Positions 420-16,996 of a DNA stretch of 64,000 bases are shown in pieces. The stretch's first letter is position 1; each line of letters begins with the position of its first letter. Below the pieces are notes generated by a model. The model made no database searches. It was not told the origin of the DNA and saw only the letters and a program-made list of their open reading frames with translations. The translations under genes and the position numbers were made by a program. The DNA comes from an uncultured Flavobacteriaceae bacterium (GTDB taxonomy: Bacteria > Bacteroidota > Bacteroidia > Flavobacteriales > Flavobacteriaceae), in the NCBI GenBank assembly GCA_947502635.1, contig CANNAN010000001.1, forward strand, positions 558,001 through 622,000. Reading direction: 5' to 3'.

Positions 420-2555
<2,136 letters not shown>

Positions 2556-2562
2556 AAATATT

Positions 2563-4542
2563 ATGAAGGGATGTAACCTAAAAAAACGAAAAAATGTAAA
2601 GCCATCACTTTTGATGGGGTTACTGTGTGTATTTGTTTTAAATTTATCTTGTGAAAACCAAAATAAGATTGAGCAAGAAATAGTAAATAAAGCCCCTTTA
2701 ATAATTAATAAAAAAGATATTCGTCGTGTTGAACCCATGAATTGGTGGGTAGGTTTTAAATCAAAAACCTTGCAGCTTTTGGTACATCATCCCAATATTT
2801 CACAAAGAACTCCCGAAATTAGTTATCAAGGCGTTTCCATAAAAAAAGTACACCAGGCCGATAGTCCTAATTACCTCTTTATAGATTTAAATATTTCTGA
2901 AATTACAAAGGCAGGTAAATTTAATATTGTTTTTAAAAAAGAAGGAGCAGAAGATTTAGTGCATACATACGAGTTAAAAGCAAGAGAGAAATTGGCAGAA
3001 GACTACATGGGCTTTAACAGTTCTGATGCCATATATTTAATTACTCCAGACCGTTTTGCAAATGGAAACCCAGGAAATGATACGTTTAAAAATTTAAATG
3101 AAAAAACGATTAACAGAAAAAATGGATATGCCAGGCATGGCGGGGATATAGCAGGTATAACAAACCATTTAGATTATATTGAAGATTTGGGTTTTACAGC
3201 GATTTGGCCATGTCCACTTCTAACCAACAATATGCCTCGTGGTTCCTACCATGGTTATGCTATTACAGATTTATATGAAATAGATCCGCGTTTTGGAACG
3301 CTAGATGAATACAAAACTTTAGCCGCTAAAATGGCAGAAAAAGGTATGAAGTTAGTCATGGATCAAGTAGCAAATCATTGTGGCTTAGAGCATTGGTGGA
3401 TGAAGGATTTGCCATTTAAAGATTGGGTAAATTATCAAGAAGTTTATGAAGCACATAGTAACTCTTGGACAAATGAAAAGACCATAAGCTCTAATCATAG
3501 ACGTACCTCCAATCAAGATTTATATGCATCAGAAAAAGATAAAGAAGGTATGGTAAATGGTTGGTTTGTATCTGGAATGCCAGATTTAAATCAACGCAAT
3601 CCATTTATGGCTCAGTACATTATTCAAAATAGTATTTGGTGGATAGAAACTGTTGAGTTGGGAGGTATTCGACAAGATACGTATCCATATCCCGATAAAG
3701 ATTTTATGAGTAACTGGGCAGGAGCTATAATGAACGAATATCCAAATTTTAGTATCGTTGGCGAAGAATGGAGTTATAACCCATTGCTTATTGGATATTG
3801 GCAAGACGGCGCAAATAATAAAGACGGTTACGATTCTAATTTAAAATCGCCTATGGATTTTGCCATGCAACATACCATTGTACAAGCTTTAAATGAAACC
3901 GAATCTTGGGATAAAGGCTTAGTGAAAATGTATGAAGGATTAGCTAACGATTTTCATTATGTGAAACCAAAAGATATTATGATTTTCCCAGATAATCATG
4001 ATATGAGTCGCATTTTTACACAATTAAAAGGCGATATTGTTAATACAAAAATGGCATTAAGTTATTTGCTTACGCTGCCTAGGATTGTACAAATATATTA
4101 TGGAACAGAAATAGTGATGGACGATTTTGAAAAACCTGGAGATCACGGTTTAATACGAACAGATTTTCCTGGTGGCTGGCAAACTGATACGGTTAATGCA
4201 TTTACAGGTGTTGGTTTAACAGAAGTCCAAAGTGAGATGCAATCATATCTAAAAGCACTTTTGAATTTTAGAAAATCCAGTAAAGCAATTCATGAAGGGA
4301 AAACAGTTCATTTTTCGCCTAAAAATGGTGTTTATGTGTTATTTAGGATGACTGAAAATGAAACCGTTGTTCATATTCTGAATAAGAATGAAGAGGCCAT
4401 TGATTTAGACTTAACCAGATTCGAAGAGATTAATTTACAAGGAAAATCGCTTAAAAATATTATTTCTGGAGAAACTGTGACATGGCATGATAATTTGAAG
4501 TTGGAAACCAAGGGAAGCATTATTTTAACTACTAAATTGTAA
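2563..4542 (+). CDS. GH13 alpha-amylase family lipoprotein (SusA/cyclomaltodextrinase-like)
   Basis: DAIYLITPDRFANGNPGNDTF, VMDQVANHCG, GGIRQDTYPY, GEEW and FPDNHDMSR motifs. ATG at 2563 gives a lipoprotein signal (VLNLSC) and avoids overlap with GH97; the ORF-track GTG at 2521 is probably not the start. Confidence 0.9.
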   Translation: MKGCNLKKRKNVKPSLLMGLLCVFVLNLSCENQNKIEQEIVNKAPLIINKKDIRRVEPMNWWVGFKSKTLQLLVHHPNISQRTPEISYQGVSIKKVHQADSPNYLFIDLNISEITKAGKFNIVFKKEGAEDLVHTYELKAREKLAEDYMGFNSSDAIYLITPDRFANGNPGNDTFKNLNEKTINRKNGYARHGGDIAGITNHLDYIEDLGFTAIWPCPLLTNNMPRGSYHGYAITDLYEIDPRFGTLDEYKTLAAKMAEKGMKLVMDQVANHCGLEHWWMKDLPFKDWVNYQEVYEAHSNSWTNEKTISSNHRRTSNQDLYASEKDKEGMVNGWFVSGMPDLNQRNPFMAQYIIQNSIWWIETVELGGIRQDTYPYPDKDFMSNWAGAIMNEYPNFSIVGEEWSYNPLLIGYWQDGANNKDGYDSNLKSPMDFAMQHTIVQALNETESWDKGLVKMYEGLANDFHYVKPKDIMIFPDNHDMSRIFTQLKGDIVNTKMALSYLLTLPRIVQIYYGTEIVMDDFEKPGDHGLIRTDFPGGWQTDTVNAFTGVGLTEVQSEMQSYLKALLNFRKSSKAIHEGKTVHFSPKNGVYVLFRMTENETVVHILNKNEEAIDLDLTRFEEINLQGKSLKNIISGETVTWHDNLKLETKGSIILTTKL

Positions 4543-4544
4543 AA

Positions 4545-6005
4545 ATGAAAAAGCTAATCATCGCAACAGCATCATTAATGTTTATTTTTTCTTGTAAAAA
4601 TGAAAAAACATCAAGCCCTAAACCTGAGGTTGAAGATGCTAAAGTAGAATCAATAAGTGAAGCGCAGGAAGTAGCAACTTTAGTTGAAATAGAACCAATT
4701 AATGATGCTATTTTAGAACAAGGAATTATTTACGAAGCTAATATTCGTCAGTATTCACCAGAAGGGACTTTTAATGCATTTACCAAAGATATTCCAGAAT
4801 TAAAGCAATTAGGAGTAAAGATTATTTGGCTCATGCCCGTATTTCCAATATCCCAAACCAAGCGAAAAGCTACAGGAGGTGAATTTGCAAGCTTAATTAA
4901 AGATGAAGCAAAAAGAAAAAAAATGCTAGGTAGTTACTATGCGATTTCAGATTTTACAAAAATAAATCCAGAGTTTGGGACTATTTCAGATTTTAGAGCC
5001 TTGGTTAACGAAGCTCATAAAAATGGTATGTATGTCATTCTGGATTGGGTAGCTAATCATACAGGTTGGGATCATGAGTGGTTAAAAAATCATCTAGATT
5101 ATTATACACATAATGAGAAGGGGGATGTTATACATCCTGAAGAAACAGATTGGACAGATGTTGCCGATTTAAATTATGATAACAAAGAGATGCGTAAAAC
5201 TATGATTGCCGATATGAGCTATTGGATTACAGAAGAAGGCATTGATGGATTCAGATGTGATGTAGCAGGTTCTGTGCCCGTAGATTTTTGGCAAGAGGCT
5301 ATTCCTCAATTACGTTCGAAAAAAGATATTTTTATGTTGGCAGAAGCTTGGGAACCAGAGCTCTTAAAAGCGAACTTATTTGATATGGCTTATGCCTGGG
5401 ATGGGCATCATTTATTAAATGATATGGCTAAAGAAGAAAAGTCTTTAAAAGATTGGGATACCTATGCAACAAAAGTAGTATCAGATTATGAAAAAGATGA
5501 TATTCTTATGAATTTTGTGACAAACCACGATGAAAATTCATGGAATGGTACCATACAAGAGCGTATGGGAGATGCCTCGGAACTTATGACGGTGTTTAGT
5601 TATATAATTCCTGGTATGCCATTAATTTATTCTGGACAGGAATATAATTTAAATCACCGTTTAAAATTTTTCGAAAAAGATGCCATTCCAAAAGGGAAAG
5701 GCAATATGTGGAATGTGTTAGAAAAACTGGGAACACTTAAAAATAAAAATGTAGCCTTAAACGGAGGCAAACAAAGTGCTTCTTACCTTATTTTTGAAAC
5801 AGATAATGAAAATGTTTTAAAATATATTAGAAGTAAAGATGGTAAAAAAATAATCTTTATAGCTAATTTTTCTAGTAAGCCACAAACTTTTAAAATGACT
5901 GATGAAGGCATTTTTTTAGATTATATGGCTAATGAGGATATCCTTTTTAATAACGAAGACGTAACACTTGCCCCATGGGCCTATAAAATTTTAATTGATT
6001 TATAA
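4545..6005 (+). CDS. GH13 alpha-amylase family lipoprotein
   Basis: MFIFSC lipobox; YEANIRQYSPEGTF, VILDWVANHTGWDHEW, GFRCDVAGSVP, LAEAWEPE and NFVTNHDENSW motifs. Starts 2 nt after the previous stop. Confidence 0.9.
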   Translation: MKKLIIATASLMFIFSCKNEKTSSPKPEVEDAKVESISEAQEVATLVEIEPINDAILEQGIIYEANIRQYSPEGTFNAFTKDIPELKQLGVKIIWLMPVFPISQTKRKATGGEFASLIKDEAKRKKMLGSYYAISDFTKINPEFGTISDFRALVNEAHKNGMYVILDWVANHTGWDHEWLKNHLDYYTHNEKGDVIHPEETDWTDVADLNYDNKEMRKTMIADMSYWITEEGIDGFRCDVAGSVPVDFWQEAIPQLRSKKDIFMLAEAWEPELLKANLFDMAYAWDGHHLLNDMAKEEKSLKDWDTYATKVVSDYEKDDILMNFVTNHDENSWNGTIQERMGDASELMTVFSYIIPGMPLIYSGQEYNLNHRLKFFEKDAIPKGKGNMWNVLEKLGTLKNKNVALNGGKQSASYLIFETDNENVLKYIRSKDGKKIIFIANFSSKPQTFKMTDEGIFLDYMANEDILFNNEDVTLAPWAYKILIDL

Positions 6006-7664
6006 ATGAGATGCTTTTTATTAATATTATACTGTTTAGTATGTCTTAATTCGTGTGGTATACAAAAAAATAAAACGACTAAAACAAACAAAGAAACACC
6101 ATTTATATGGGAAGCAGCTAACCTATATTTTTTACTTACAGATCGTTTTAATAATGCAGACTTTTCTAATGATATTAATTTTAATAGAACAGCAAAAACA
6201 GCCAAGCTTCGTGGTTTTAAAGGAGGTGATATAAAAGGAATAACTCAAAAAATTAAAGCAGGGTATTTTACAAATTTAGGAATCAATGCTATTTGGTTGA
6301 CACCAATTGTTGAACAAATTCATGGAGGTACAGATGAGGGGACTGGATTAACCTACGGTTTCCATGGGTATTGGGCCAGAGATTGGACCGCTTTAGACCC
6401 AAATTTTGGTACCAAAGAAGATCTGCACGAATTAGTTGCTGCAGCACATAAAAATGGTATTAGAATTGTATTGGATGCCGTAATTAATCATATAGGGCCT
6501 ATTACAGATAAAGATCCTGTTTGGCCTGAAAATTGGGTTAGAACACATCCAAAATGTAACTATAAAACATACGATGCTACCATAACTTGTACACTTGTTG
6601 ATAATCTACCAGATATAAAAACAGAAGTCAATGCGCCAGTTAGCTTACCAGCTCAAATTATAGAAAAATGGAAAAAGGAAGGACGTTATGAGCAAGAAGT
6701 AGCTGAATTAAATGATTTTTTTAATAGAACAGGATACCCTAGGGCACCTAGGTTTTATATTATAAAGTGGTTAACCGATTATATTACCGAATTTGGAATT
6801 GATGGCTACCGTTGCGATACTGTAAAACATACCGAAGAAAATGTGTGGCAAGAATTTAAGGCCGAGTGTGATTATGCTTTTGCTGAATGGAAAAAAAATA
6901 ATCCCGATAAAGTATTGGATGATAACAACTTTTATTTAGTTGGAGAAATTTATAATTATGGAATCAACACAGGGCAATACTATGATTTTGGAGATAAAAG
7001 AGTTAATTATTTTGATAATGCATTTCAAAGTCTAATCAATTTTCAGTTTAAATGGAATGCTGCTCAACAAGATTATGAAAAACTATTTAGTAGTTATTCA
7101 AATTACTTAAAAACCGACTTAAAAGGTTTTGGCACCCTAAATTATTTAACATCACACGATGACGGGAAACCTTATGATGCATCACGTGAAAAACCTTTTG
7201 AAACGGCAACAAAGCTATTGCTCGCACCAGGAACTTCTCAGGTTTACTATGGTGACGAGTCTGCACGGCCTTTAATTATTGAAGGCACAGAAGGAGATGC
7301 CACTTTACGATCTTTTATGAATTGGGATGCCATTAAAAATGATGTAAAAACAAAAAAAATATTGTTACACTGGCAAAAATTAGGAAGGTTTAGGGTTAAT
7401 CATCCAGCCATAGGTGTAGGAATTCATCAAATGATAAACCAAGAACCTTATGTGTTTTATAGACGTTTTTCAAAAGACAATTATAATGATTTAGTGTTAG
7501 TTGGATTAGGTTTGCCAAAAGGGAAAAAAATACTGGATGTATCTGAAGTATTTAAAAATAATGAAGTGCTTCGTGATGCATATTCAAATAAGAAAGTAAA
7601 GGTTAAAAATGGAAAAGTATTGGTCGATTCCGAGTTTAGTATCGTTTTGTTAGAAAAGAAGTAA
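6006..7664 (+). CDS. GH13 alpha-amylase family lipoprotein
   Basis: VCLNSC lipobox; LYFLLTDRFNNAD, VLDAVINHIGP, GYRCDTVKH, LVGEIYNYG and LTSHDDGK motifs. ATG directly follows the previous stop codon. Confidence 0.9.
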   Translation: MRCFLLILYCLVCLNSCGIQKNKTTKTNKETPFIWEAANLYFLLTDRFNNADFSNDINFNRTAKTAKLRGFKGGDIKGITQKIKAGYFTNLGINAIWLTPIVEQIHGGTDEGTGLTYGFHGYWARDWTALDPNFGTKEDLHELVAAAHKNGIRIVLDAVINHIGPITDKDPVWPENWVRTHPKCNYKTYDATITCTLVDNLPDIKTEVNAPVSLPAQIIEKWKKEGRYEQEVAELNDFFNRTGYPRAPRFYIIKWLTDYITEFGIDGYRCDTVKHTEENVWQEFKAECDYAFAEWKKNNPDKVLDDNNFYLVGEIYNYGINTGQYYDFGDKRVNYFDNAFQSLINFQFKWNAAQQDYEKLFSSYSNYLKTDLKGFGTLNYLTSHDDGKPYDASREKPFETATKLLLAPGTSQVYYGDESARPLIIEGTEGDATLRSFMNWDAIKNDVKTKKILLHWQKLGRFRVNHPAIGVGIHQMINQEPYVFYRRFSKDNYNDLVLVGLGLPKGKKILDVSEVFKNNEVLRDAYSNKKVKVKNGKVLVDSEFSIVLLEKK

Positions 7665-7723: not shown

Positions 7724-9631
7724 TTAGTCTTTAATAGAAGGTCTTAATACAGGATTTTTGCTAGTAGGAAAATCTGATGCAACGTAGTTGTCTACCTCAT
7801 TTCCACTTAACCATTGCAGCGACCGTGTCATACTTTGTTGAAAAGCAGCACAACGCATGCTAGGAGGCCATTCTTGATTATGCCATAAATGACCATATGT
7901 TGAACAGTAAACTTTCCCTTTACCATACTTAACAACCCATTCCATTGGGAAGTTTAAACCAGTTTTTTCATCTTTTGCATACGAGATTACTTTTAGGTTT
8001 TGCTTTGTACCTCTTCCATAGCGATATACTTCTATATCTGCTCCTAGCCACTTTTTTGGCATTCCAAGATGAATTGGGTGATTGCCCAGCCTAGTAATCA
8101 ATACATCTCTACGTTTACCATGTCCTGTATTTTCGCCTGTTCCTTTAGGTATAATCTTTAACTTTTCAGATTCATCAATGGTTATAGCAATACCAAAATC
8201 TTTATTACGCCAACCTAAACCTATTATGTCATTGTAGGCCTGCCAGCCTTTAAAAGCATTAGTGGCACCATGGTACATATACACACCACCACCTTCTTTA
8301 ACATATTTTTCAAATGATATTTTTACTGCATCTGGCCATTGAAGACTGGCTTCTTTATTAATATTATTACATGTTTGAATGACGACAGGATAATTTGAGA
8401 AATTAGGACGCCATTTTTCCCATTCAGATGGATTGCTCATTTGATTAGGACAGGTGCTAACTGATACATCAAATTTCCCACTAGCTTCCAATATTTTCTT
8501 CAAATACGTTGTATTCAATTGCCAATGATGATTACTAAAACCATCTACTATTAGAACAGGTATTTTTTTGGGAGTAACAAGATCACTTATTTTTTCAATT
8601 CGAATGTTGTCATATAAAATACCCCCTCCAACGGTGAGTGCTGTAGAAAACATAGAAAGTTTTACTTTCCCATTTGGCGGTGCTATAAAGTCATAAGTAA
8701 CTTCCTCCCAACGTGGTGCTTTTACTAGTTTATTGCGACTTAGACTCAATACCAATTTATCATTAAGAAAAATCTCGCCAGTAAGTGAATCTTCTTGATT
8801 CCAATATTTATGGCGAGCGTATAAAAACGATAACCTATAATTTGTTTTTGGAATCAAATGACTAACAGTTTGTGCAATGCCTCCTGGGCCATGACCACCA
8901 AGATCAATAACCCATTTTCCATGCGGAGTACCGTAATGGTCAATAGCAATAAGGTCGATGTTTTCTCTCATAATCAACCATCCAGGAAGTTGTTGACCAA
9001 AAAGATGAGGATTACTAGCATTATTATCTACTGTCATCTCAAAACTTCCATTAACCAAATGATTGCTAACAGGAGGCGCTAATGGTAAGCCTTCTTCTAT
9101 TCGAAGATTATCAATTATTAAACCCGTTTTTCCAATTGTAGTAGATACAAACTCTAGTGAGGCAACTCCTTTAGTTGATGATTTAAATGCAAAGCCAATA
9201 CCTCCAATATAGTTTGGAGCATGAGAAAGGTTACGAAGTGTCGTTATTTTTTCACCATTTACAAAAATGTCTGCAGTAGCCAAAGTTCCTGACTCATCAC
9301 GATTTCTGGTTTTTTGATCTGCATATTCGAATTTTAAAGTATAATCGCTGTTCTTTTTTAAGCCTTTAATTGTTTGTTGAATGGCTCCTGGTTGATTGCC
9401 GTTTAAATCCAGTACTTGGTTCCCGTTAGCAGCCGAAAATACTGAGCCAGTAATTAATTCTACATTACCTCTACTTACTTTCCAACCGTTTAGTTTTTTT
9501 ACAATTTGTCTTTCAGACTTAATTACTTTCTTTTCAAATGAAGCATTCTTTATTTGAGCTTGCGTAAAAATCGTGTTACTTAGCAAAATAAGATTTAACA
9601 CGATAAGTTTTTTATAACAAATGGTCTTCAT
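7724..9631 (-). CDS. ThuA domain-containing secreted protein with two N-terminal DUF642/choice-of-anchor-C-like modules
   Basis: Two tandem N-terminal modules (NASFEKKV...GNQVLDLNGNQPGAIQQTI and NGSFEMTV...GKWVIDLGGHGPGGIAQTV), then a ThuA-like domain (IPVLIVDGFSNHHWQLNTTYLKKILE...VYMYHGATNAFKGW...WLGADIEVYRYGRG). Confidence 0.8.
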   Translation of the reverse strand: MKTICYKKLIVLNLILLSNTIFTQAQIKNASFEKKVIKSERQIVKKLNGWKVSRGNVELITGSVFSAANGNQVLDLNGNQPGAIQQTIKGLKKNSDYTLKFEYADQKTRNRDESGTLATADIFVNGEKITTLRNLSHAPNYIGGIGFAFKSSTKGVASLEFVSTTIGKTGLIIDNLRIEEGLPLAPPVSNHLVNGSFEMTVDNNASNPHLFGQQLPGWLIMRENIDLIAIDHYGTPHGKWVIDLGGHGPGGIAQTVSHLIPKTNYRLSFLYARHKYWNQEDSLTGEIFLNDKLVLSLSRNKLVKAPRWEEVTYDFIAPPNGKVKLSMFSTALTVGGGILYDNIRIEKISDLVTPKKIPVLIVDGFSNHHWQLNTTYLKKILEASGKFDVSVSTCPNQMSNPSEWEKWRPNFSNYPVVIQTCNNINKEASLQWPDAVKISFEKYVKEGGGVYMYHGATNAFKGWQAYNDIIGLGWRNKDFGIAITIDESEKLKIIPKGTGENTGHGKRRDVLITRLGNHPIHLGMPKKWLGADIEVYRYGRGTKQNLKVISYAKDEKTGLNFPMEWVVKYGKGKVYCSTYGHLWHNQEWPPSMRCAAFQQSMTRSLQWLSGNEVDNYVASDFPTSKNPVLRPSIKD

Positions 9632-9806: not shown

Positions 9807-10661
9807 CTATTTCTTATATTCTTTTTTAAATTCTATAGGAGATCTTTTGGTTATAGCTCTAAATTGTTTATTAAAATTCGACAAGGTTCTAAATCCACTA
9901 GAATAACATGCTTGTGATGCATTCATTTTTTGTTCGATGAGTAGTTTGCAGGCGTAACCTATTCGTATTTCACTAAGAAAATCTGAAAACGTTTTATTAG
10001 CATGCATTTTAAAATAACGACTAAAAGAGGTGGAAGTCATATTCGTTAATTCTGCCATTTCTGAAATAGAAATTTTTTGCTTAAAGTGTTTTGTAACATA
10101 AGTGTATACTTTATTCATTCGTTCTGAATCACCTTCTTTTAATGAATTGGTATAGCCAGCACTGGTCAGTGTTTCTATTTCATCGCTTTTAGAGAGACAA
10201 TTTAAAATATTTAATAACTCTAAAACGCCATCAAAACCTTCCAGATATGGGAGGTTTAAAAGCATTTTTGTAATATCTTTTAATGTTTTACCTTTAACAG
10301 ATATCCCTCTTAAACTTAGTTTTAAGAGATGTTTCAATTTTATAACTTCTACTTTATTAAAAAAAATGTTATCCATAAAATTATCATGGAAATAGACTAC
10401 AATGCCTTCAGACCAATCTTGAGGGCTTTCATAATCGCTACGCCAAAGATGCGGTAAATTAGGGCCAGTAAAGGTTACACTTCCTTCTTTATATCGTTCT
10501 ATATTATCACCAATAAATCGTGTTCCACTTCCCTTTAAAACAATAAAAAGTTGATATTCTGAATGAAAGTGCCAATTGGGGTCAAAAAAAGGCTGTTTAA
10601 GCTTTTCGACAATATAAATACGTGTTTTTGGTATGGGTGATTTTTGTAAAGCCGATTTCAT
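9807..10661 (-). CDS. AraC family transcriptional regulator (cupin sensor plus HTH)
   Basis: FFDPNWHFHSEYQLFIVLKGSGTRFIGD (cupin) and SISEMAELTNMTSTSFSRYFKMHANKTFSDFL...SQACYSSGFRTLSNFNKQFRAITKRSPIEFKKEY (HTH_18). Confidence 0.92.
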   Translation of the reverse strand: MKSALQKSPIPKTRIYIVEKLKQPFFDPNWHFHSEYQLFIVLKGSGTRFIGDNIERYKEGSVTFTGPNLPHLWRSDYESPQDWSEGIVVYFHDNFMDNIFFNKVEVIKLKHLLKLSLRGISVKGKTLKDITKMLLNLPYLEGFDGVLELLNILNCLSKSDEIETLTSAGYTNSLKEGDSERMNKVYTYVTKHFKQKISISEMAELTNMTSTSFSRYFKMHANKTFSDFLSEIRIGYACKLLIEQKMNASQACYSSGFRTLSNFNKQFRAITKRSPIEFKKEYKK

Positions 10662-10827: not shown

Positions 10828-10917
10828 TCACGAAATCATGAAAACTATTATTCTAATAAGAAGGTTTGAATTAAATCTTGCAACTTTAATATGTTAAAAT
10901 CATATTACATATATACT

Positions 10918-13743
10918 ATGAGATACATTTTTTTACTGTCTGCCTTTTTTATGATAGGATGTTTAGAAGAAGAAAAAACAAAGCATCGTAATGATGTGGT
11001 TCATGAACAAGATGCGCAACAAAAAACAGATTATACTAACTGGCAGGTATATCGAGGAGATAAAAAAGGCAACCAGTTTGCAGAATTAGCGCAAATTCAT
11101 GCAGCAAATGTTAATAAATTAGAACTTGCCTGGCAATACCGCACTGGAGATGCAAGTGAGCGCTCATCCATGCAGTGTAACCCTATTATGATTGATGGTC
11201 TATTATATTTTTCTACATCAACTTTAAAAGCTATTGCTCTGGACGCTACTACAGGTAAAGAAGCTTGGGTTTTTGAATCTTCAAAGTATAACAAAGACGG
11301 AAAGGTTTTTAGAGGTAGAAGCCGAGGGGTTACTTATTGGCAATCAAAAGATGGTACAGACCGTCGTATATTCCATTATGTTAAAAATAGAGTGTATGCA
11401 ATTAATGCAAAAACGGGAGAGCTTATAGAATCTTTCGGCTCAAATAACAAAGGTTTTATTGATTTACGAGAACATTTGGATATGGAACTAGGTAAAGCTT
11501 CCATTGAAGTTACCACGCCTGGAATTGTATATAAAAATACATTAATAGTAGCATCAAGGGTTCCAGAAGGCTATAAATCTACACCAGGTCATATTAGGGC
11601 TTTTGATGCTATTACTGGACAATTTAAATGGATATTTCATACCATACCAAAAGAAGGTGAGTTTGGTTATGATACTTGGGAGTTTGTGGAAGGAGAAACT
11701 TATGGAGGAGCCAACGCATGGGGAGGATTTACTTTAGATGAAAAAAGAGGTTGGGTATTTTGTGCAACAGGCTCGCCAGCATACGATTTCTATGGAGGTC
11801 ATAGAAAAGGACAAAACTTATTTGGTAATTGTGTGTTAGCCTTAAATGTTGAAACAGGAGAACGTGTTTGGCATTATCAAACTGTACACCATGACTTATG
11901 GGATTATGATAATCCATCAGCTCCCATATTGGTAACTATAAGAGATGAAGGGAAGCAAAAAGACGCCGTTGTACAATTAACAAAAATGGGACTTACTTTC
12001 GTTTTAGATCGTGAAACAGGAAAACCAATATTTCCTGTAGAAGAAATGGAAGCACCCCCATCAACTCTTGAAGGAGAAGAAGCTTTTCCTACACAGCCCA
12101 TACCTCTTAAACCACTACCATTAACCCATTTGGGAATGACTGAGGCTAATTTAACAAATGTGTCTCCAGAAGCAAGAGCAGCTGTACTTAAAAAGTTTTC
12201 AAAGCTAATACCTGGAGTTTTATACGAACCGCCTTCAGAGGTAGGTACTATTTCTGCTCCTGGAACACTAGGAGGTGTCGAATGGCAAGGGGGATCTTTT
12301 GATCCTTACTCAAACATTTTATATGTAAATTCTAATAATGGCGCTTCTATTTTAAAAATGAAAAAAGTAAAGGATTTAAAGAATAAGAAGCTATCAAAAC
12401 TCCAACAAGGCCGTCAATTGTATGTGCAAAATTGTGCGTCTTGTCATGGTATTGAAAGGGAAGGGGTACCACCTGTATATCCTAGTTTGCTAAATCTAAA
12501 AAAATCAAAGGAGGAGATTACTGAAGTTATTAAAAATGGACGAAATATCATGCCTGCATTTCCTCAGTTTAAGAAAGAAGAATTTGTTTTGTTAGCTGAT
12601 TATTTGTCTAGTAATAAGGTTGTTAAAGATACTGCTGTAACCAGTGAAGGAGCGGTGAGGTATCACCATACGGGGTATGCTAATTTTTTAGACCATCAAG
12701 GGTATCCAGGAGTTGCTCCGCCTTGGGGGACTTTAAATGGTATTGATTTAGCTACAGGTAATTTTGTTTGGAGAAAGACTTTAGGCGAATACCCCGAACT
12801 TGTAAAACAGGGGATACGCAATACAGGCACAATGAATTACGGAGGAGCAGTAGCTACTTCTGGTGGCGTTATTTTTATAGCAGCTACAGCCGATGAAAAG
12901 ATTAGAGCTTTTGAAAAAAGCCGAGGTAAATTATTATGGGAGTATAAGCTCCCCGCTGGGGGGTATGCAACGCCGACTATTTATATGAAAGATGGTAAAC
13001 AATATGTTGTTATTGTTGCTGGAGGCGGTGGCAAAAACGGTACGCCATCTAGTGATCATGTTATGGCGTTTGCACTCCCTGATAATTACTTAAATACCAC
13101 TAAAGTAGATTTAGAAGGAAAAAAGGACAACCAAGGCTGGATTTCACTTTTTAATGGAAAAAATTTGGATGGTTGGGTGCATATGAATGGATCTCATAAG
13201 TATAGAGTTGAAAATGGTGCTATTATAGGAAGAACAACTCCAGAAAGCCAAAATTCTTTCCTGTGTTCATTGCAGGAATTTGATGATTTCGAATTTGAGT
13301 GTGATGTTATGGTAGATGATATTACGAATCAAGGCATACAATTTAGATCTTCCGCACGACCTGTCACAGAAAAAGACCATAGTCTTTTTAGAGCTGGACG
13401 GGTATGGGGGCCGCAACTTGAGATTAGACGTAAAATGGGAGAAGGCAAGGTGACAACGGGTTTAATTTATGGTGAAGCTATGGGAATAGGCTTCCTTTCT
13501 TCGGAAGAAAAAGTAAAAAACAGTCATGACTTCTATATCTCTGAGGGGTGGAACAAAATCCGTATTGTAGCAAAAGGGCCAAGGGTACAAACTTTTTTGA
13601 ATGGACATCAAATAGATGATGTTGTTAATGAAGAAGTATATAAGACACACCCCAAAGGTTTTATAGGCTTGCAAATACATGGAATGAAAGGTAAGAAGCA
13701 GTTTACTATGGGGTGGAAAAATATAAAAATAAAACCCATTTAA
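10918..13743 (+). CDS. PQQ-dependent dehydrogenase with internal cytochrome c domain and C-terminal DUF1080 (3-keto-disaccharide hydrolase-like) domain, lipoprotein
   Basis: Quinoprotein propeller repeats (WQYRTGD, ALDATTGKEAWVFES, HHDLWDYDNPSAPIL, YGGAVATSGGVIFIAATADEKIRAFEKSRGKLLWEYKLPAGGYATPTIY); CASCH heme c motif; DUF1080 (GWISLFNGKNLDGWVHMNG...FDDFEFECDVMVDDITNQGIQFRS...GFIGLQIHG). ATG at 10918 gives a lipoprotein signal (MIGC). Confidence 0.88.
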   Translation: MRYIFLLSAFFMIGCLEEEKTKHRNDVVHEQDAQQKTDYTNWQVYRGDKKGNQFAELAQIHAANVNKLELAWQYRTGDASERSSMQCNPIMIDGLLYFSTSTLKAIALDATTGKEAWVFESSKYNKDGKVFRGRSRGVTYWQSKDGTDRRIFHYVKNRVYAINAKTGELIESFGSNNKGFIDLREHLDMELGKASIEVTTPGIVYKNTLIVASRVPEGYKSTPGHIRAFDAITGQFKWIFHTIPKEGEFGYDTWEFVEGETYGGANAWGGFTLDEKRGWVFCATGSPAYDFYGGHRKGQNLFGNCVLALNVETGERVWHYQTVHHDLWDYDNPSAPILVTIRDEGKQKDAVVQLTKMGLTFVLDRETGKPIFPVEEMEAPPSTLEGEEAFPTQPIPLKPLPLTHLGMTEANLTNVSPEARAAVLKKFSKLIPGVLYEPPSEVGTISAPGTLGGVEWQGGSFDPYSNILYVNSNNGASILKMKKVKDLKNKKLSKLQQGRQLYVQNCASCHGIEREGVPPVYPSLLNLKKSKEEITEVIKNGRNIMPAFPQFKKEEFVLLADYLSSNKVVKDTAVTSEGAVRYHHTGYANFLDHQGYPGVAPPWGTLNGIDLATGNFVWRKTLGEYPELVKQGIRNTGTMNYGGAVATSGGVIFIAATADEKIRAFEKSRGKLLWEYKLPAGGYATPTIYMKDGKQYVVIVAGGGGKNGTPSSDHVMAFALPDNYLNTTKVDLEGKKDNQGWISLFNGKNLDGWVHMNGSHKYRVENGAIIGRTTPESQNSFLCSLQEFDDFEFECDVMVDDITNQGIQFRSSARPVTEKDHSLFRAGRVWGPQLEIRRKMGEGKVTTGLIYGEAMGIGFLSSEEKVKNSHDFYISEGWNKIRIVAKGPRVQTFLNGHQIDDVVNEEVYKTHPKGFIGLQIHGMKGKKQFTMGWKNIKIKPI

Positions 13744-15793: not shown

Positions 15794-16996
15794 TTAAAAC
15801 TTTGGAATAAGATTCAAACTTACCCCGAGTACTTTTTGACTAATTGCGTTGAGATCTTCAAAAGAACCTTCAAAATGATAAGTTGTATGTTTATGGTACA
15901 TCGTTTCATTTGTATTAAGTTCTTTCGCGCTAGATGATGTTTCAAACTCATAAAATGGCCAGTTTCTATCTAAGGGTTCATTAACTTCACCATTAAAAAT
16001 ATTGGTTACATCACCATCGTAAGGCGTTTCATTTTTAGGTAATGAGTTTACATACAAAGAATCGTTTTTAAAAGTAAATTTTACAATATTTAAAAGATTA
16101 TTTTTTTCAGAATAACTACCTATAATGTTTTTAGATAAATCTGATTTTATCCCAATCTTATTTACCCCATCTGCATCAGCTTTATAAAAAACGACACGAT
16201 CTTTTGTAACCAACCTATCTGAGGTTACAGGGGTAAAATATCCAGTAACCGAATCGGTTTCTTTTTGAACAGGTATAATTACTCTATTATCAGGACTTGT
16301 ATGCATGCATCCTAATTCCCAAATGCATAGAAGACCATTTTCTTTACGCCATTGTTCGCCTAAGTTTTTCACATTTGTTTCAGCACTAAACCCAACAAAA
16401 GTAGTATGGTTGTTTAAAAAAATATTTAAATCGTTTTCAATTTGAGACTTTGTTAAAAGTGAAATTTTTCGCTTGGCATTAATATTAAAAATATAACCGT
16501 AATTGTTTCTTATTTGTAAATCGGCTCCATAGGTTGCAGATAATTTGTCCTTTTCAATTAAAGAAAACTTTTTAGAGTCTAAATCGGGAGAAATTTTCAT
16601 GTTTTCAATCTCTCGTTTTATCCCTTCATCAAAAAAAACAGAATATTTACCAAACTCAGGACCAAACCATAATCTGCTCTCTCCACCTAATTTAGACATA
16701 GTATGTCCATGGACGCCTTCATCAAACAATTTCCAATTAATGTAACCATAAGATTTTCCATTTAAACCATTGGAAGTACTTGTAAATACTTTAGCTTGGT
16801 AGCTCCCAGAAAAAGCAATAGCAGCATTACCGTGCTCTAAAACTTGTAAGTCATTTATAACGGCAAGTTTTTTTACATCATCAGCAAAGTTTGTGCTATT
16901 GGAAACTTTAGTTTCAGGGTTTTTACAATTAAAAAATGATGTTATTACAAGTATGAGAAGTACAGTGTTAGTAATTATATTATGTTTTTGAGTCAT
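15794..16996 (-). CDS. Lipoprotein of unknown function (possibly DUF6786 family)
   Basis: 400 aa, lipobox TSFFNC, full-length ORF with no recognised catalytic motif. Confidence 0.6.
   Translation of the reverse strand: MTQKHNIITNTVLLILVITSFFNCKNPETKVSNSTNFADDVKKLAVINDLQVLEHGNAAIAFSGSYQAKVFTSTSNGLNGKSYGYINWKLFDEGVHGHTMSKLGGESRLWFGPEFGKYSVFFDEGIKREIENMKISPDLDSKKFSLIEKDKLSATYGADLQIRNNYGYIFNINAKRKISLLTKSQIENDLNIFLNNHTTFVGFSAETNVKNLGEQWRKENGLLCIWELGCMHTSPDNRVIIPVQKETDSVTGYFTPVTSDRLVTKDRVVFYKADADGVNKIGIKSDLSKNIIGSYSEKNNLLNIVKFTFKNDSLYVNSLPKNETPYDGDVTNIFNGEVNEPLDRNWPFYEFETSSSAKELNTNETMYHKHTTYHFEGSFEDLNAISQKVLGVSLNLIPKF

Follow-up and report, generated by a model that had tools for sequence, protein, structure and literature searches.

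A lipoprotein joining a PQQ-dehydrogenase propeller, an inserted cytochrome c and a DUF1080 domain in one chain, a candidate for oxidative glycoside cleavage

To our knowledge, oxidative glycoside cleavage has so far been tied to FAD and NAD dehydrogenases that act with separate cleaving enzymes. LacA is an FAD enzyme of the GMC type. Genetics link the DUF1080 protein CCNA_01705 to the hydrolysis of 3-keto-disaccharides alongside LacABC, and BT2157, also a DUF1080 protein, is a 3-ketotrehalose hydrolase (PMC9007349); the association of DUF1080 with 3-keto-glycosides that was made when the present locus was read from its letters is borne out by these reports. Among the papers listed in a literature search, none names DUF1080 together with PQQ. 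The locus described here was found in an uncultured Flavobacteriaceae bacterium, in a window of 64,000 nucleotides (the whole stretch of DNA that was analysed), and encodes a single chain that may join steps normally split among separate proteins.

The gene is contained in an uninterrupted open reading frame on the forward strand (positions 10891-13743, 950 aa, no internal stops). Its true start is probably at 10918 (Met10) rather than at 10891, because a clean lipoprotein signal (MRYIFLLSAFFMIGC, Cys24) then results. Directly after Cys24, an acidic stretch, LEEE, was observed. Acidic residues serve as export signals of Bacteroidetes lipoproteins (PMC5080379), and those behind Cys24 are similar to the published signal, with no exact match. 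From these features, the protein is predicted to be a membrane lipoprotein exposed on the periplasmic or surface side. The description of a single lipoprotein with three parts, as given in the sequence-only reading, was upheld by this signal and by Pfam matches above cut-off, and all three domains were recovered when their boundaries were checked with Pfam and structure prediction (Table 1). A frameshift or annotation artefact was ruled out by the single open frame and by the further fused loci described below. A scan for promoters and terminators gave a yield no higher than in shuffled sequence.

Table 1. Features of the fused gene and of its neighbours (window coordinates; residue numbers in brackets).
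Feature	Position	Strand	Basis
Three-part lipoprotein gene	10918..13743	+	Longest ORF from 10891; Met at 10918 suits signal peptide
Lipoprotein signal peptide ending at Cys24	10918..10962	+	Sequence
PQQ propeller, N-terminal part (aa 51-505)	11041..12405	+	Pfam PF01011; fold match
Predicted catalytic Asp338 (= Gcd Asp466)	11902..11904	+	Gcd alignment; invariant 47/47
Predicted PQQ-contacting Lys365 (= Gcd Lys493)	11983..11985	+	Gcd alignment; invariant 47/47
Inserted cytochrome c domain (aa 504-572), distal Met554	12400..12606	+	Pfam PF13442; ligands invariant
Heme c attachment motif CASCH (aa 515-519)	12433..12447	+	Sequence
Last propeller blades (aa 591-730), including Asp668 (= Gcd Asp730)	12661..13080	+	Pfam, alignment
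DUF1080 / 3-keto-disaccharide hydrolase domain (aa 749-948), subfamily with GRVWGPQLEIRR	13135..13734	+	Pfam PF06439
Divergent AraC-type regulator	9807..10661	-	Pfam HTH_18
ThuA-domain secreted protein	7724..9631	-	Pfam; homologue directly upstream of fused gene in G131 (L140)

The PQQ propeller family PF01011 matched the protein with 626 bits, and PQQ_2 blades were detected at residues 613-706. Active-site residues were assigned by alignment with Escherichia coli Gcd, using what we take to be the numbers of its PQQ-contact residues; in addition to D338, K365 and D668, W277 was found to correspond to Gcd W404 and R145 to Gcd R266. The alignment of PQQ-coordinating residues that had been suggested as a check was favourable, as the catalytic residues were present and D338, K365, W277, R145 and D668 were all invariant among 47 related propellers. 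At the position of Gcd Asp354 the protein has E226, with E or D being found there in 44 of the 47. By these residues, the active site of the propeller is intact.

In the same alignment, the positions of Gcd H775 and H262 were not conserved; therefore, glucose specificity is no safe assumption, and a glucose enzyme like E. coli Gcd was dropped as a candidate. The top NCBIfam match was nevertheless the glucose/quinate/shikimate dehydrogenase subfamily TIGR03074, with 480 bits under a cut-off of 832.65 and starting from model position 122; the N-terminal membrane region of that model is missing, and a single lipoprotein signal stands in its place. This match would favour an aldose dehydrogenase of the usual kind, acting at C1 as glucose dehydrogenases do, with the DUF1080 domain as a carbohydrate-binding module that anchors the enzyme to polysaccharide, whereas the unreached subfamily cut-off and the missing H775 argue against it. 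Taken with the evidence on the DUF1080 domain itself, given below, we consider this explanation unlikely.

The inserted cytochrome c domain was matched by PF13442 with 52 bits, and its heme c ligands C515, C518, H519 and M554 were invariant in 47 of 47 relatives. The insertion precedes the final blades of the propeller, at a point where the aligned E. coli Gcd has a gap, and the placement of the cytochrome within the propeller, ahead of its last blades, that had first been noticed from the sequence was confirmed both by this gap and by the Pfam positions. The heme c module is near the PQQ site in sequence. The protein does not have the C-terminal heme c domain of a type II quinohemoprotein alcohol dehydrogenase, its heme domain being located ahead of the last blades.

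The supply of the cofactor was followed through PqqC. This protein was not found in the genome of the window, a search of 398 phylum members at the curated cut-off gave none either, and none was detected in nine fusion-bearing genomes (MAGs, some incomplete), whereas G551 and G552, used as positive control, gave PqqC matches of 314-319 bits. With PqqC missing from the genomes examined, the PQQ would have to be imported, or else the enzyme would be empty. The assumption of a PQQ-dependent enzyme was sustained by the residues of the PQQ site but not by PqqC in the host or in the nine fusion-bearing genomes. The absence of PqqC across the phylum and in the tested fusion genomes, together with a weak match to the NCBIfam 'acido-empty-quinoproteins' family, could also be explained by an empty or seldom-loaded quinoprotein, retained mainly for its heme or its DUF1080 part. 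We regard this as very improbable, as the catalytic and PQQ-contacting residues are invariant, which would be needless in an empty propeller, and E. coli, which makes no PQQ, has a PQQ-dependent Gcd.

The C-terminal domain was matched by PF06439 over its full length (model positions 1-187 of 187), with 119.7 bits against a cut-off of 26.8. The predicted pocket residues N813, Q817, R819, Q842, E844, Y860, E862 and H930 are common to canonical DUF1080 members, whereas the canonical motif GYQxEIDP is replaced by GPQLEIRR. The Asp of this motif is missing across the fused DUF1080 subfamily and its close solo relatives, and is present in the canonical solo members compared. In the alignment of DUF1080 residues asked for in the sequence-only reading, the predicted pocket was retained, and this Asp, a possible catalytic residue, was not. 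When a solo DUF1080 protein of the same genome was used as the query of a structure search, only weak matches were obtained.

An AlphaFold model of the protein had a mean pLDDT of 83.6 and a pTM of 0.83, with low pLDDT in the DUF1080 loops 822-838 and 860-873. The model matched PQQ alcohol dehydrogenases with TMt values of 0.57-0.74, and PQQ dehydrogenases acting on C3 of deoxynivalenol were among its structure matches. Its C-terminal domain separately matched the DUF1080 domain of BT3469 (4jqt), with an rmsd of 2.9 over 202 columns.

The proposal of a carbohydrate-binding module is favoured by the overlap between DUF1080 and CBM66 annotations (PMC5673643), by weak matches of DUF1080 to the CBM66 chains of levanases and by the absence of one conserved Asp from the fused subfamily. 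It is opposed by the retention of all the predicted pocket residues listed above, by the occurrence of the close unfused DUF1080 relatives as solo proteins, and by a conservation of the domain equal to that of the propeller. In this respect, the mean identity among the fusions was 66% for DUF1080, 66 and 71% for the propeller, 44% for the cytochrome and 11-18% for the flanking linkers. The contrast between DUF1080 and the linkers indicates that the domain is strongly constrained, and it appears, from these identities, to be held under selection equal to that acting on the propeller.

To place the protein among its relatives, 85,462 species genomes were scanned and the best 80 loci retained, so that the counts that follow are lower bounds. 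Among these 80 loci, at least 10 further fused loci were found, in Bacteroidota, Verrucomicrobiota and Acidobacteriota, the hosts being Saprospiraceae, Lewinella, other Bacteroidia, Opitutaceae, another Verrucomicrobiota bacterium and Acidobacteria including Bryobacterales. Two of the fused loci are incomplete in form, L046 being broken into two frames and L051 reaching the end of its contig. In the family of the window, 150 other genomes were covered; the unfused PQQ-cytochrome protein was common in them, and only G131 had the full fusion (68% identity). A further fusion was found neither in the phylum of the window (397 other genomes) nor in Verrucomicrobiota, the phylum of L050 (242 other genomes). 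The survey of the architecture suggested in the sequence-only reading therefore showed it to recur in three phyla, and the fusion is rare yet widely scattered. Because relatives carry the whole architecture in a conserved clade, a chance joining of domains was rejected; the architecture is real, conserved and apparently undescribed.

In a tree, all the fused proteins fell within one clade of 18 rows with a support of 100/98. This clade also includes a subgroup of six rows without a fused DUF1080 (three Cyclobacterium, G321, L047 and L131), to which the fused L045 is sister. A single fusion with later loss would be the most economical history, and repeated fusion a less simple alternative. Four of the six unfused members carry DUF1080 as an adjoining co-directional gene: in the three Cyclobacterium species a DUF1080-DUF6807 gene is located immediately downstream of the PQQ-cytochrome gene, and in G321 the DUF1080, DUF6807 and PQQ-cytochrome genes are consecutive. 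As the DUF1080 of the Cyclobacterium neighbour is of the canonical type, with its Asp kept (EVDP), it is a replacement and not the product of a simple split. The propeller of L131 (G506:C108), about 61% identical to that of the window, lacks both cytochrome c and DUF1080 and is placed inside the fused clade.

In the window, the AraC-type regulator probably controls the fused gene, as suggested by its divergent position. The ThuA-domain protein also contains choice-of-anchor C repeats, and in G131 its homologue is encoded on the same strand as the fused gene. A starch utilisation locus (SusC, SusD, SusE/F, GH97 and several GH13; window 438-7664 and L169) immediately precedes the ThuA gene, and the fused gene follows downstream of that locus, with the AraC and ThuA genes in between. 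A DUF6786 protein is encoded at 15794-16996 (375 bits). In the window, the fused gene has AraC, ThuA, GH97 and GH13 genes as neighbours, and genes of a 3-keto-glycoside pathway (Gfo/Idh, xylose-isomerase-like, DUF1080) were not found next to it. Elsewhere in the same genome, a cluster (L141, C2:588000-606000) encodes a GMC oxidase, a gluconate 2-dehydrogenase subunit 3, DUF1080, a xylose-isomerase-like protein and Gfo/Idh, similar to the LacABC type (LacA/LacC-like).

The majority of DUF1080 genes, and of PQQ-cytochrome genes, are unlinked: among the best 80 loci, DUF1080 was found within 3 kb of only 5 of 73 unfused genes, three of these five being from Cyclobacterium. Outside the fused clade, adjacency was observed in L133 and in Edaphobacter (L110), where the DUF1080 and PQQ-cytochrome genes are followed by those for a transporter, Gfo/Idh and a xylose-isomerase-like protein, in a row like those of 3-keto-sugar loci. 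The fused L058 has a xylose-isomerase-like gene alongside, and L044, one of the fused or split loci, an additional DUF1080 protein just upstream. A second type of fusion, DUF7133 with cytochrome c and DUF1080, was identified in L134, L135 and L137 by Pfam and in L136 by HMM only; these proteins have roughly 900-1100 aa and come from genomes of the window's phylum. The coupling of dehydrogenase and DUF1080 proposed at the outset is, therefore, a recurrent one, either as a fusion or as adjoining genes. DUF6807 (PF14100) was repeatedly seen, either encoded next to the PQQ-cytochrome gene or joined with DUF1080 in the adjoining protein (L138:7515-8507, L045:163-1080, L047:832-1782, L049:9980-11776), and it possibly belongs to the same pathway.

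Sulfatase genes were observed near the fused or split loci L140, L046, L049, L054 and L138, which may point to sulfated glycans as the substrates at these loci. The glycan breakdown suggested by such genes would fit a reverse order of events, in which a glycan not yet oxidised is first hydrolysed by DUF1080 and the freed sugar is then oxidised by the propeller. Work cited by PMC9007349 reports endo-xanthanase/lichenase activity for one DUF1080 protein, THTE_1561 (see also PMC5673643). This order is nevertheless judged distinctly unlikely, as keto-sugars are the substrates of other DUF1080 proteins for which there is evidence (PMC9007349) and as DUF1080 is combined with a dehydrogenase time and again.

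Our preferred reading, to which we assign a probability of about one half, is that of a membrane-anchored quinohemoprotein whose single chain would both activate and cleave a glycoside. Once charged with PQQ from outside, the propeller would oxidise a secondary hydroxyl of the glycoside, most likely at C3; electrons would pass from PQQ to heme c and then to an external cytochrome acceptor; and the tethered DUF1080 would cleave the activated keto-glycoside into a leaving sugar or aglycone and a keto-sugar. We infer this chemistry, its site at C3 and the sequence of the steps. The reading is favoured by the invariant catalytic and heme residues, by the recurrence of the fusion and of adjoining genes, by the parallel DUF7133 fusion, by the equal conservation of DUF1080 and by the GMC oxidase cluster of the same genome; against it stand the absence of PqqC from the genomes searched, the missing Asp of the fused DUF1080 subfamily, the rarity of linkage among unfused genes and the starch locus around the fused gene. 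The C3 position is suggested by the evidence on the DUF1080 proteins BT2157 and CCNA_01705 (PMC9007349) and by PQQ dehydrogenases known to convert deoxynivalenol, by oxidation of its secondary alcohol at C3, into the 3-keto form. More tentatively, and with the odds somewhat against it, this could be the first case of one chain producing a 3-keto-glycoside by means of PQQ and then cleaving it, with a built-in heme wire; it would occur in three phyla or more and draw its PQQ from neighbours. If true, the oxidative glycoside-cleavage pathway would have a quinoprotein branch, channelling of the unstable keto-sugar would be suggested, sugar use in these bacteria would depend on PQQ from other organisms, and a direct, testable handle would be gained on what the many PQQ-cytochrome dehydrogenases of Bacteroidota act on.

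Compared with known systems, the protein shares with E. coli Gcd (TIGR03074) its propeller sequence, the catalytic Asp, the Lys, Trp and Arg, and a host that does not make PQQ, but differs in having a lipoprotein anchor, an inserted heme c and an extra DUF1080, and in lacking the N-terminal membrane helices and H775. Quinohemoprotein alcohol dehydrogenases (1kb0, 1yiq, 8gy2) likewise combine a PQQ propeller and a c-type heme in one chain, although their heme domain is C-terminal instead of preceding the last blades, and identity is about 20%. PQQ-cytochrome c dehydrogenases such as L052 and L055 have the same propeller with the inserted cytochrome, at 40-50% identity, without DUF1080. In the DUF7133-cytochrome c-DUF1080 proteins (L134, L135, L137), DUF1080 also follows cytochrome c in one chain, but the N-terminal domain is DUF7133, and L135 retains the canonical GYQxEIDP. 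The two-domain DUF1080 protein BT3469 (4jqt) has the same DUF1080 fold and most of the conserved pocket residues, whereas it lacks redox parts and retains the EIDP Asp. Finally, LacABC with its separate DUF1080 hydrolase (Caulobacter CCNA_01705) is a periplasmic sugar dehydrogenase functionally coupled to DUF1080 (PMC9007349), a coupling that is proposed here too. The LacABC parts are separate genes, whereas here the PQQ propeller, cytochrome c and DUF1080 form one chain, and by this analogy the fused protein would be the PQQ-based counterpart of LacABC working with a separate DUF1080 hydrolase.
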